From Candidatus Neomarinimicrobiota bacterium (GTDB taxonomy: Bacteria > Fidelibacterota > Marinisomatia > Marinisomatales > TCS55), in assembly GCA_018651745.1 (NCBI GenBank), contig JABIDL010000028.1:12079-76078 (forward strand): a stretch of 64,000 nucleotides of DNA, in the 5' to 3' direction. Position 1 is the first letter of the stretch, and each line of letters begins with the position of its first letter. Both the position numbers and the translations under genes were made by a program. The notes beneath the pieces were generated by a model. The model was given only the letters and a program-made list of their open reading frames with translations. It had not been told where the DNA came from and searched no databases. This document shows positions 28,981-36,412 of the stretch, in pieces.

Positions 28981-31956
28981 ATGATGGCTGAAACAATAAA
29001 AACATTGCGTTCGCAAGTCAATTTTCAAGATCTGATGCTGGTGAGGATTCATGAAATCCTTTTGGTTGCAAGCCCATACGATGCATTTATTTTGGAAGAA
29101 GAAGGAGGACTTACGCAACAGATTCTTTATGAATATCTTGGAATGAATTTGAGCTATGCCCCCCGTGTTTGGCATGCAAAAAGTGCTACAAAAGCATTGG
29201 ATATGCTTTCTCATCGAAAATATGACATGGTTATTGTGATGATGAGAATTGCGGATATGGATCCGGTGACTTTTGGTTCAAAAGTAAAAAAATTATTCCC
29301 CAAAAAACCAGTCATCTTGCTTGCTTTCGATCCCTCAGAAATTAAGCAAATTCCGGAAAAGAGGTTGACGAAATCCATCGATAAAATATTTATTTGGTCC
29401 GGGAATGCTAATGTATTCCCTGCAATTATAAAATATTATGAAGATAAGAAAAATGTTAAGCGAGATTATAAGATTGCTGATATAAGATGTATTATTGTTG
29501 TGGAGGACAATCCTAGGTATTATTCTATTCTTCTTCCGTTATTATATAAAATCGCATTGAAACATGCACGAAATCTTATCAACTCTAGCCTTTCGGATGC
29601 AGATAGAATTTTGATGTTTCGGGCCCGTCCTAAAATTTTGCTCACTTCTACTTACGAAGAGGCTATCGATTATTACAAGAAATATCGGAATAATATTCTT
29701 GGAATTGTGTCAGATGTTCGTTTCCCAATGAGTGGAAAACTAGATCCGGATGCCGGTGTAAAGCTTACAAGGTTTATTAAAGAATTGGATCCAGATATGC
29801 CAATCATTCTCCAATCAACGAACCAAGATCAGGAGAAAGAAGCCCAAAAGGCAGATGCACAGTTTTTGCATAAACATTCCGGAAATCTGCTACAGGAAAT
29901 AGAAAAATTCATTGTAAATAATTTTGGTTTCGGTGATTTTGTATTTCGAACATCAAAACAAAAAGAAATATCCAGAGCAACTGATCTCATATCGCTTAAA
30001 AAAGCAATAAAACTCGTTCCTGGGAAAAGCCTTGAATTCCACGCATCACGAAATCATTTTTCAAACTGGATTGCTGTAAGAGGAGAATTCAAAATCGCTT
30101 CCAAATTAAGATCGATGAAAATCCATCATTTTGATAAGACCGAAGATTTACGAAATATTTTAATTGAATTTATTGATAAAGCCATCCTAGAACAGCATAA
30201 AGGTCGAATTGCCGCATATTCGAAATCTTCGAGAGAAAAGAAAATGAACTTTACCCGGATATCTACCGGGTCTTTGGGTGGAAAAGCACGAGGGCTTGCA
30301 TTTGCAAATTCAATGTTAATGGAATCCGGTATTCCCGAAAAATATCCGAATATCCTAATTCGAATTCCCAATATTTCCGTGATTGGTACAGATGAATTCG
30401 ATCAATTTATGGGTGATAATAATCTTTGGCAAAAAGTAGTAACAGATAAATCAAACTCATCCATTAACAGACTTTTTCTAAAAGCATCTCTTCCTACAGA
30501 ATTGGAGAAACTTCTTAAAAATTTTCTCAATGATGTAAAATATCCATTAGCCGTGCGATCGTCTAGCTTGTTCGAAGATTCACAATATCAACCATTGGCA
30601 GGTATGTATGCGACCTACATGATTCCCAATGCAAATAAGCATAAGAAAGATCGATTACATCAGCTTTGTAATGCCATTAAACTTGTGTACGCTTCTATGT
30701 TTTACCAAGAACCGAAAGCACTCATCGAATCTTCTGTCCATAATCTTTCTGAAGAAAAAATGGCAGTAGTTTTAATGGAATTGATCGGAAAAAAATATGA
30801 CGATATCTTTTATCCAACTATCAGCGGATCGGCACAAAGTTTTAATTATTATCCCGTATCTTATATGGAACGAGAAGAAGGTGTTGCGTTTGTAGCGCTT
30901 GGGTTAGGGCGCACTGTTGTAGAAGGTGAAAAAGCACTTCGGTTCTCCCCAAAATATCCAGCTATTCTACCTCAATATTATTCTATCAAAGCAACCATAG
31001 ATAGCTCGCAAAACAGCTTTTATGCACTCAATCTCACTCCCAATAAAAAACTTTTATCCAAAGGTGAAAAGGGGAATCTGAAGTCCTATAAATTAAGCCG
31101 CGCGGAAAAAGACGGAGAACTAAAATGGGCAGCAAGTGTGGTCTGTGGGCAAGATAACGTGATTCGTGAATCTCTTCGCTACCAAGGAACCCGCGTTATC
31201 ACTTTTCCATCAGTTTTGAAATGGAATACCATTCCATTAACAGATATAATTTTAGACCTCCTTGAAATTGGAGAAAATTCACTCGGCTGTCCTGTAGAAA
31301 TTGAATTCGCATCTAATGTGTATGACGAAGATGACAAACCCTCGGAATTTTGTCTTCTTCAAATCAAACCTTTAGTAACGCGCTCTTTGGACCGTTTCGA
31401 GGAGTTGGAGTCTAGTTCTCCAGAGAACATCATCTGCAAAAGCGAAGCAGCTCTTGGGAATGGAATCATTCAGGGAATTCAAGATATTATCTTAGTTGAC
31501 CCCCAAGGTTTTGATCCTGCACATACAAAAATAATGGCTAAAGAAATTGAATTTCTAAACATCAAACTTGAAGGAAAACCGTGCATATTAATGGGGCCTG
31601 GCCGATGGGGATCCGCAGATCATTGGTTGGGAATTCCGGTAAAATGGCAACAAATTTCTAATGCAAAGGTCATTGTTGAACTTGGGATCGAGGATTTTCC
31701 GGTTGATCCATCTTTTGGGAGTCATTTTTTCCAAAATGTTACCAGCATGCGTATTGGGTATTTCACAGTTAATCATAAAAAGAAATCAGATGATTGTAAT
31801 TTGAAGTGGATAAAATCTCAACATACCCAAAAGAAAAAGAAATATACCAGATTGATTCACCTTGAAAACCCTCTCCTCGTAAAAATTGACGGACGAACAG
31901 GGACAGGAATTATCCAGAAACCAGTTGAACAGAAGATGGAATTAATGGACGAACAA

Positions 31957-31974
<18 letters not shown>
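28981..31974 (+). CDS. Response-regulator receiver plus PEP/pyruvate-binding (PPDK-N) protein
   Basis: The 997-residue protein has three parts. Residues about 24-150 resemble a receiver domain without the phosphoacceptor Asp (VIVMMRI where VILD is expected). Residues 168-315 are a receiver with a plausible full site: Glu175/Asp176, Asp245, Thr280 and Lys298. Residues about 425-810 form the ATP-grasp domain of PEP synthase/PPDK, with STGSLGGKARGLA, AVRSSSLFEDS and LLQIKPLVTR. The swivelling phosphohistidine domain and the PEP-binding barrel are both absent, so it cannot be a normal PEP synthase. The C-terminus has a distinct GPGRWGSADHWLG segment. Function is unknown; a phospho-signal-controlled phosphotransfer role is my inference. 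Confidence 0.8.
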
Positions 31975-33319
<1,345 letters not shown>

Positions 33320-34921: not shown

Positions 34922-36412
34922 ATGAATCTTCCACTATTTCAACCCTTTGCCAATGAATGGATAACATTCGGTATATTTTTTATCGGAATCCTTTCTATGG
35001 TAGCCACTGCAGAATTATTGCTTTACAAAAAGAATGTACATCCTGAATTTGTTAGAAAATTTGTTCATGTACTTGTCGGGATTCTAGTTTCCACCTGTCC
35101 ATTTATTTTCGAATCAAACCTTCCGCCAATGGCGCTCGCTGGTATTTTCATCGTCGTGAATTTTCTTTCTCTCAAATCAGGGAAATTGAAAGGCATGCAC
35201 TCAACAGATAGAGTTACATACGGCACCGTTTATTTTCCGATTGCTTTCCTGATTCTTGCTACATTTTTTTGGGAAAAACCGATAACCTTAATTTTAAGTA
35301 TGCTGGTGATGTCGCTTTCAGACACAGCAACCGGAATTTCCGGATCAAAGGCAGATCATCCACGAATATTCACGTTGTGGAAAGATTCAAAAACTCTGGA
35401 AGGATCCACAGTGATGTTTCTTACAACATTTCTGATTGTTTATGTTGGAACAGATTTTTTTGCATGGATTTTCGGTGCAGCATTTTTTATTCCGTTACCG
35501 AATCTTATCAGCCTCGCCGGATTTGTTGCAATGATGGCAACACTGGCAGAAGCTGTATCTTGCGAAGGTTCGGACAATCTGTCCGTTCCGCTGGTTGCAG
35601 CCATTACCTATGAGCTCTATTTAATCAATTATACGCATGGGACTCTTCCGATATTTATGCTCTGGACGGTGGGTTCTGGGATCATATTTTTATACGCTTT
35701 CAAATTAAGAACACTTTCGGCAAGCGGGACGGCAGGCGCTTTTTTAATGGGCGTTTTGGTGTTTGGGGTTCAGGGAGTTTATGGCATAGTTCCACTATTG
35801 ACTTTTTTCTTACTTTCATCCTTTCTATCTAAGATTGGAAACAAACAAGAGAACACGTTTCAAAAAGGATCTCAAAGGGACATCATTCAAGTATTAGCGA
35901 ATGGCGGCGTTGGAATGCTGATTTTACTTTGGAATTTTTTCTACCCTTTCGAAGGTGCATATCTCATTTTCCTCGGAAGTATCGCAGCAGCAACGGCGGA
36001 TACGTGGGCAACAGAAATCGGGTTTTTCAGCCGGTCAAATCCGCGGAAAATTTCGACATTCAAACAGGTAGAAAAAGGAACTTCCGGTGGGGTAACACTC
36101 ATTGGAACATTTGGATCTTTTCTGGGGGCCGGTGTAATAGCCGGAGTTGGATTATTGCTGGGTGTGGATCCTGAACTCTTTTGGATTATTACCGCCGCGG
36201 GGTTCATTGGGAGTATTGCTGACTCTATTTTGGGAGGAACCGTTCAGGCGCGGTTTTATTGCAAATCCTGTGAAAAAGAAACCGAAAAACGGAGGCATTG
36301 TAGTGGCGTAACTCAGCATGTAAACGGATTCAAGTGGATGGATAATGATATGGTGAATTTTCTAAATACTATAACGGGAGCAGTGGTAACATATTTTTCC
36401 GTCCTGATTTAG
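34922..36412 (+). CDS. Fused VTE5-like isoprenoid-alcohol kinase and DUF92 (VTE6-like) membrane protein
   Basis: The 496-residue protein is almost entirely membrane segments in two halves. Residues about 1-245 resemble CTP-dependent phytol/dolichol kinases (RKFVHVLVGI, SDTATGISGSK, SKTLEGSTVMF). Residues about 250-496 are DUF92: SQRDIIQVLANGG, AATADTWATEIG, GTSGGVTLIGTFGS, IADSILGGTVQ and a C-terminal DNDMVNFLNT, plus a CKSC pair. In plants VTE5 phosphorylates phytol and the DUF92 protein VTE6 acts on phytyl phosphate. A fusion could convert an isoprenoid alcohol to its diphosphate. That reaction is inferred; the substrate is unknown. Confidence 0.8.
   Translation: MNLPLFQPFANEWITFGIFFIGILSMVATAELLLYKKNVHPEFVRKFVHVLVGILVSTCPFIFESNLPPMALAGIFIVVNFLSLKSGKLKGMHSTDRVTYGTVYFPIAFLILATFFWEKPITLILSMLVMSLSDTATGISGSKADHPRIFTLWKDSKTLEGSTVMFLTTFLIVYVGTDFFAWIFGAAFFIPLPNLISLAGFVAMMATLAEAVSCEGSDNLSVPLVAAITYELYLINYTHGTLPIFMLWTVGSGIIFLYAFKLRTLSASGTAGAFLMGVLVFGVQGVYGIVPLLTFFLLSSFLSKIGNKQENTFQKGSQRDIIQVLANGGVGMLILLWNFFYPFEGAYLIFLGSIAAATADTWATEIGFFSRSNPRKISTFKQVEKGTSGGVTLIGTFGSFLGAGVIAGVGLLLGVDPELFWIITAAGFIGSIADSILGGTVQARFYCKSCEKETEKRRHCSGVTQHVNGFKWMDNDMVNFLNTITGAVVTYFSVLI

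Follow-up and report, generated by a model that had tools for sequence, protein, structure and literature searches.

The 997 aa protein considered here is encoded in a 64,000 nt stretch of a Candidatus Neomarinimicrobiota genome (referred to as the window). It joins two receiver domains to an ATP-grasp domain of the type found in pyruvate phosphate dikinase (PPDK) and PEP synthase, and it is annotated in a relative only as a PEP/pyruvate-binding domain-containing protein. It carries no PEP barrel, and the question raised by this locus is what such a phosphotransfer engine acts on.

Domain composition and conservation

The gene is a single uninterrupted open reading frame and is a real gene rather than a chance frame, as full-length relatives were found at ~38-71% identity. 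A single scan of species genomes picked out at least 574 relatives, from taxa that include Bacteroidota, Ignavibacteria, Acidobacteria, Deltaproteobacteria, Gemmatimonadota and Desulfosporosinus. Of 120 genomes sampled from the same phylum, 101 contain a relative, in most cases a single full-length copy; in some of the 101 there is no more than a shorter paralogue or a fragment. The features assigned are listed in Table 1.

Table 1. Features of the gene and of its convergent neighbour, with positions in the window.
Feature	Position	Strand	Basis
Receiver-receiver-ATP-grasp-swivel (predicted) protein gene, 997 aa	28981..31974	+	ORF, Pfam, relatives
Receiver domain 1, pseudo-receiver (residues ~22-158)	29044..29454	+	Pfam, alignment, structure match
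Receiver domain 2, complete (residues ~168-317)	29482..29931	+	alignment, structure match
DUF5752-like linker segment (residues ~320-409)	29938..30207	+	Pfam, alignment
PPDK/PEP-synthase-type ATP-grasp domain (residues ~424-800)	30250..31380	+	Pfam, alignment, structure match
Divergent C-terminal swivelling (phosphohistidine-type) domain (residues ~805-982), predicted fold	31393..31926	+	predicted model, alignment
Glutamate dehydrogenase (GDH), 445 aa, convergent neighbour, proposed target	31979..33316	-	PF00208 E 2.6e-97

Receiver 1 (Pfam receiver match at residues 49-115) closely resembles the PorX receiver when the predicted model is compared with solved structures (Z 15.9 over 121 residues, rmsd 2.2). 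D34 and W139 are conserved among 55 diverse full-length relatives, and an acceptor Asp was found at position 87 or 88 in none of them (0/55). The predicted fold of receiver 2 also matches known receivers (Z ~15 over 113-122 residues, rmsd ~2). In the same 55 relatives, E175, D245 (codon 29713-29715) and K298 are each invariant, position 176 is Asp in 48 and Asn in 7, and position 279 is always Ser or Thr (S279 in the window protein). Receiver 2 therefore has the acidic pair, acceptor Asp, Thr/Ser and Lys expected of a receiver, whereas receiver 1 fails on the acceptor Asp. Because this pattern holds across 55 diverse relatives, one degenerate and one complete receiver is a rule of the family and not an accident of a single sequence. 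The likeness to PorX and other two-component response regulators lies in the receiver folds and in the full active-site set of receiver 2. In those proteins the output is DNA-binding, cyclase or PglZ, whereas here it is a PPDK-type phosphotransfer core.

The segment that links the receivers to this core gives a weak Pfam match to DUF5752 (PF19027, residues 355-409, E 4.4e-5, 23.4 bits against a cut-off of 23), and H354, S361 and W363 within the segment are invariant in the 55 relatives. A free-standing protein of 229 aa consisting of the same segment was seen in an acidobacterial genome (locus L202, 4953-5642), upstream of an apparent trehalose-type glycosyltransferase gene and near an apparent alpha-amylase-type gene. 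DUF5752 was discarded as a clue to function, as this free-standing version lies among what appear to be glycogen/trehalose-type genes and not with GDH. No mention of DUF5752 was found in a literature search that was thin on subscription journals.

The ATP-grasp domain belongs to Pfam PPDK_N (PF01326; E 8.7e-34, residues 431-803). K435, R526, E773, E775 and Q794 are invariant in the 55 relatives, and position 796 is Arg or Lys (K796 in the window protein); these we take to be the ATP-site residues, equated to those of PPDK by motif. In an alignment of 61 proteins that spans all subfamilies, down to ~26% identity, K435, E775 and Q794 are retained in 61/61 and R526 in 60/61, while position 773 is Glu or Asp. 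In the same alignment G874, R875, W, G877, G884, E900, S911, G913, H915 and F916 of the C-terminal region are each present in 60-61 of the 61 proteins, and the C-terminus is thus as conserved as the ATP site. No PEP/pyruvate TIM barrel was detected by Pfam or in the predicted model, and the protein ends at residue 997. The initial annotation had described one degenerate and one apparently complete receiver, an ATP-grasp domain of the PEP-synthase family and no PEP barrel, and all of this is borne out. It had also named loss of ATP-binding residues as a point to check, and none of the six has been lost. The DUF5752-like segment and the downstream GDH gene were both missed.

The C-terminal domain

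In PPDK, PEP synthase and rifampin phosphotransferase (RPH), the core reaction places the ATP beta phosphate on a His of a swivelling domain. The profile for that domain (PF00391, with the motif GGxTSH) has no match in the 997 aa protein. The C-terminal region is instead marked by the motifs GPGRWGS and PS-x-GSHFFQN, the latter including His915 (codon 31723-31725). Comparison of narrow and broad profiles of this region with known swivel domains using HHalign was not significant. Forced HHalign alignments placed His915 on the catalytic His with confidence near zero, and these were not counted as sequence proof.

In the AlphaFold2 model (mean pLDDT 84.7), residues 426-981 align with residues 4-466 of PEP synthase 2ols (Z 26.2, 362 residues, rmsd 4.7), and residues 423-982 with residues 8-511 of PPDK 1dik (Z 18.6, 351 residues, rmsd 5.0). 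As the ATP-binding fragment of RPH alone aligns over 276 residues (Z 23.1), the additional residues aligned with PEP synthase and PPDK come from the C-terminus. When folded alone (residues 803-985, pLDDT 91), the C-terminus was matched best by the extra domain of pyruvate kinase (Z 7.3, 107 residues), followed by the swivel domains of RPH (Z 7.0, 112 residues) and PPDK (Z 6.4, 117 residues) and a PPDK carrier domain (Z 5.9, 117/128); Z scores of 6-7 are modest and within the range of common arrangements. Mixed among these matches are other domains of the swivelling beta/beta/alpha fold, as well as a DRTGG domain. Swivel domains came to the top only with the second structural aligner, unlike with Foldseek, which returned nothing below E 0.03 for the C-terminus alone. 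In the model, His915 is the first residue of a helix (915-922) that follows a strand and the Pro-Ser-x-Gly-Ser loop, and the catalytic His of PPDK likewise lies within a helix.

The predicted fold and the invariant His915 make it very probable that the C-terminus is a diverged phosphohistidine domain. The initial annotation had held that no such domain follows the ATP-grasp domain, and had proposed structure prediction as the check for a hidden one. The predicted model has a divergent swivel fold at residues ~805-982, contrary to that claim.

Association with glutamate dehydrogenase

The GDH gene lies 4 bp downstream of the 997 aa protein gene, on the opposite strand and with its own end facing it, and is the only PF00208 match found in the genome. 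When all neighbours of 80 named relatives were clustered, GDH was the sole widespread family apart from the query itself. A GDH gene was located within 1.5 kb of 49 of these relatives, from many phyla, with a median gap of 74 bp and in all four relative arrangements: the 57 GDH genes at these 49 loci comprise 20 upstream and 17 downstream on the same strand, and 12 downstream and 8 upstream on the opposite strand. No GDH gene is present within 1.5 kb in the other 31, where some contigs end early. Within the same phylum, GDH was found within 6 kb of 58/79 full-length copies and within 1.5 kb of 17/19 shorter paralogues, compared with none of 37 true PPDK genes (6 kb) used as a control. The difference between 58/79 and 0/37 gives a Fisher p of 2e-15, which is indicative only as the genomes are related. 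Mere conserved synteny was ruled out as the reason for the adjacency by the four arrangements, the many phyla, the several GDH types and the PPDK control at zero. Co-location gives no direction, that is, which of the kinase and GDH acts on the other.

In Desulfobacterota, the phylum of a Desulfobacterium relative, GDH was present at 19 of 30 sampled loci with flanks of only ~1.5 kb, and most of the kinase proteins at these GDH loci are paralogues only 25-32% identical. In Parabacteroides distasonis, the gene (WP_041525632.1) lies between gdhA and a second NADP-GDH gene 3.5 kb further on, and a Phocaeicola record has the same layout. Two loci form alternating arrays, GDH-kinase-GDH-kinase-GDH in L065 (2-10418) and GDH-kinase-GDH-kinase in L032 (879-10335). 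The link has been lost in genus g39 of family f18 of the same phylum.

The core also occurs without the receivers. Related proteins of 776-801 aa carry another N-terminus, forms of ~865-911 aa and 1070 aa have N-termini that read from the sequence as KaiC-like and GAF-like, respectively, the latter with an NTP_transf_2 domain at the C-terminus, and a 586 aa form has little beyond the ATP-grasp domain and C-terminus. These forms are matched to particular GDH types, with the receiver form paired with a 445 aa GDH type in 83/89 cases, the 776 aa form with a 415 aa type in 9/9, the 586 and 1070 aa forms with a 430 aa type in 11/12, and the 867 aa form with the 445 aa type in 7/8. As subfamilies without receivers are also linked to GDH, the receivers serve as an input module, and it is the core that is tied to GDH. 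The pairing and the alternating arrays would be difficult to account for if GDH itself were not what the core works with.

Three loci (L042 422-6681, L046 1901-8170 and L047 1101-7458) contain an apparent operon of a GDH gene (~430 aa), a 586 aa paralogue and a 1070 aa paralogue, with the last two genes overlapping. The NTP_transf_2 C-terminus of the 1070 aa protein has an intact GS...SDIDI motif, and the arrangement points to a GDH regulator of two subunits that may also carry out nucleotidyl transfer. Proteins of 865-881 aa in L147, L146 and L162, the N-terminus of which appears to be of KaiC/RecA type with no obvious P-loop, are from a subfamily found beside GDH at part of its loci.

The 997 aa protein gene was missing from eight small genomes (0.8-1.0 Mb) of one genus and from a few others of the 120. 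The eight (G006, G028, G036, G060, G083, G098, G102 and G115; f2/g5, same order) keep GDH-family genes, and the kinase is therefore dispensable for GDH in streamlined lineages.

Possible function and alternatives

The 997 aa protein is not a member of the PPDK or PEP synthase families, which have a PEP/pyruvate barrel and the motif GGxTSHAA where this protein has no barrel and GSHFFQN. It shares the ATP-grasp residues and the order of ATP-grasp and (predicted) swivel domain with those enzymes, and probably works as they do up to the phosphohistidine step. Taken together, the order of the domains, the residues conserved, the predicted folds and both the linkage to GDH and the subfamily pairing lead us to place at about 0.55 the probability that the protein is a dikinase-type histidine kinase, gated by a signal and dedicated to the neighbouring GDH. 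The ATP-grasp domain would use ATP to phosphorylate His915 on the swivelling domain, in the manner of PPDK, PEP synthase and RPH. Because there is no PEP barrel, the phosphorylated domain would then act on the GDH next door, either by passing on the phosphate or by binding, and so alter GDH activity. The effect might be one of restraint, a guess made by analogy with VadK (below). A sensor histidine kinase encoded elsewhere would phosphorylate Asp245 of receiver 2 and thereby switch the engine, so that ammonia would enter or leave glutamate at a rate set by the signal. Several points count against this reading: the C-terminus has no sequence-level similarity to known swivel domains and its structural scores are modest, 31 of 80 relatives have no GDH gene within 1.5 kb, the link has been lost in genus g39, and the small f2/g5 genomes keep GDH in the absence of the kinase gene.

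The closest precedent is VadK (Rv1127c) of Mycobacterium tuberculosis, a PPDK derivative without the barrel that autophosphorylates His422, co-purifies with the methylcitrate-cycle enzymes methylcitrate synthase and dehydratase, and reportedly binds enzymes of that cycle and modulates them (PMC13400623). Both proteins combine a PPDK-derived ATP-grasp domain with a phosphohistidine domain (here a predicted fold) and no PEP barrel. However, VadK is a truncated PPDK, whereas the swivel domain here is too diverged for detection by sequence, and across the present family twin receivers or GAF-like, KaiC-like or nucleotidyltransferase modules are attached to the core. The activity of VadK has been demonstrated, while the 997 aa protein is known from sequence, predicted fold and gene context, with GDH as its partner by context.

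RPH, which phosphorylates its swivel His with the ATP beta phosphate (PMC4844700), and HpeHI (PMC12167813) use the same engine for purposes other than PEP, and characterised swivel-His relatives mostly act on small molecules. The 997 aa protein could accordingly be a small-molecule dikinase in the pathway of GDH, with phospho-His915 donating its phosphate to a metabolite in glutamate or ammonia metabolism, the receivers acting allosterically and GDH a neighbour rather than the target; PigC and RedH ligases are also among the sequence matches. This is unlikely. RPH and HpeHI carry an acceptor-binding domain, and none is visible here by Pfam or fold matches, though a non-homologous site is possible, and the 586 aa form barely exceeds the ATP-grasp domain and C-terminus. 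No gene other than GDH recurs widely as a neighbour, and pairing with distinct GDH types fits recognition of a protein better. Somewhat less probable again is a non-catalytic sensor of ATP/AMP and signal that binds GDH and exerts allosteric control over it, in which the ATP-grasp domain only senses the adenylate pool. Linkage to GDH would be expected of it and the departure of the swivel motif from GGxTSH is in keeping with it, but the ATP-site residues are fully kept, with H915, S911, G913 and E900 invariant, in all subfamilies, which favours a catalytic role.

Transfer from phosphohistidine to Asp is standard receiver chemistry, and this chain contains both an invariant His and a receiver Asp that is likewise invariant. 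An internal phosphorelay between the ATP-grasp/His915 unit and Asp245, making a self-contained unconventional two-component protein with an output that binds GDH, is nevertheless improbable and could not be the shared core reaction, since GDH-linked subfamilies without receivers exist. The most doubtful of the alternatives is that of the initial annotation, in which the ATP-grasp domain lacks a phosphohistidine domain and works with a separate histidine protein encoded elsewhere. It agrees with the lack of any swivel-domain match to the C-terminus from PF00391 or sequence profiles, but is opposed by the predicted fold and placement of that region. No stand-alone swivel partner was found: a search of the genome with PF00391 detected a single domain, which is part of a separate full PPDK (903 aa open frame, contig 41). 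What survives of this earlier picture is phospho-signal input to an ATP-grasp protein that is unable to make PEP and is probably directed at a partner; the partner, then described as unknown, is now proposed from context to be GDH.

Ammonia and glutamate are connected mainly by two routes, of which GDH is one. On the other, it is textbook knowledge that glutamine synthetase is controlled rapidly by covalent modification, whereas no comparable general control of bacterial GDH is known to us. A literature search that had most subscription journals outside its reach found no GDH-linked PPDK-like regulator. More tentatively, and with somewhat less than even odds, the dedicated GDH kinase proposed here may represent an unrecognised class of bacterial enzyme regulators. 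In this class, PPDK-type ATP-grasp/phosphohistidine engines with interchangeable sensors would each be matched to one GDH type and control it by phosphorylation, as a GDH counterpart of the GlnE/GlnD system for glutamine synthetase. A GDH kinase of the kind proposed would join VadK as a second case in which a PPDK engine has been converted into a regulator of proteins. Gene order and the matching of subfamilies link the family, present in most genomes of the phylum and in gut Bacteroidales, acidobacteria and sulfate reducers, to GDH, and proteins left unassigned under a generic name thereby become a directly testable candidate regulator.

Two further observations were made. In a Riflebacteria locus (L091, 5899-11413), a gene for the receiver form lies immediately 5′ of one for a 784 aa paralogue of the 1070 aa class, with no GDH within the stretch examined. 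At 34922-36412 in the window, a 496 aa protein appears from its sequence to consist of two membrane domains, the first half cytidylyltransferase/phytol-kinase-like and the second DUF92-like.
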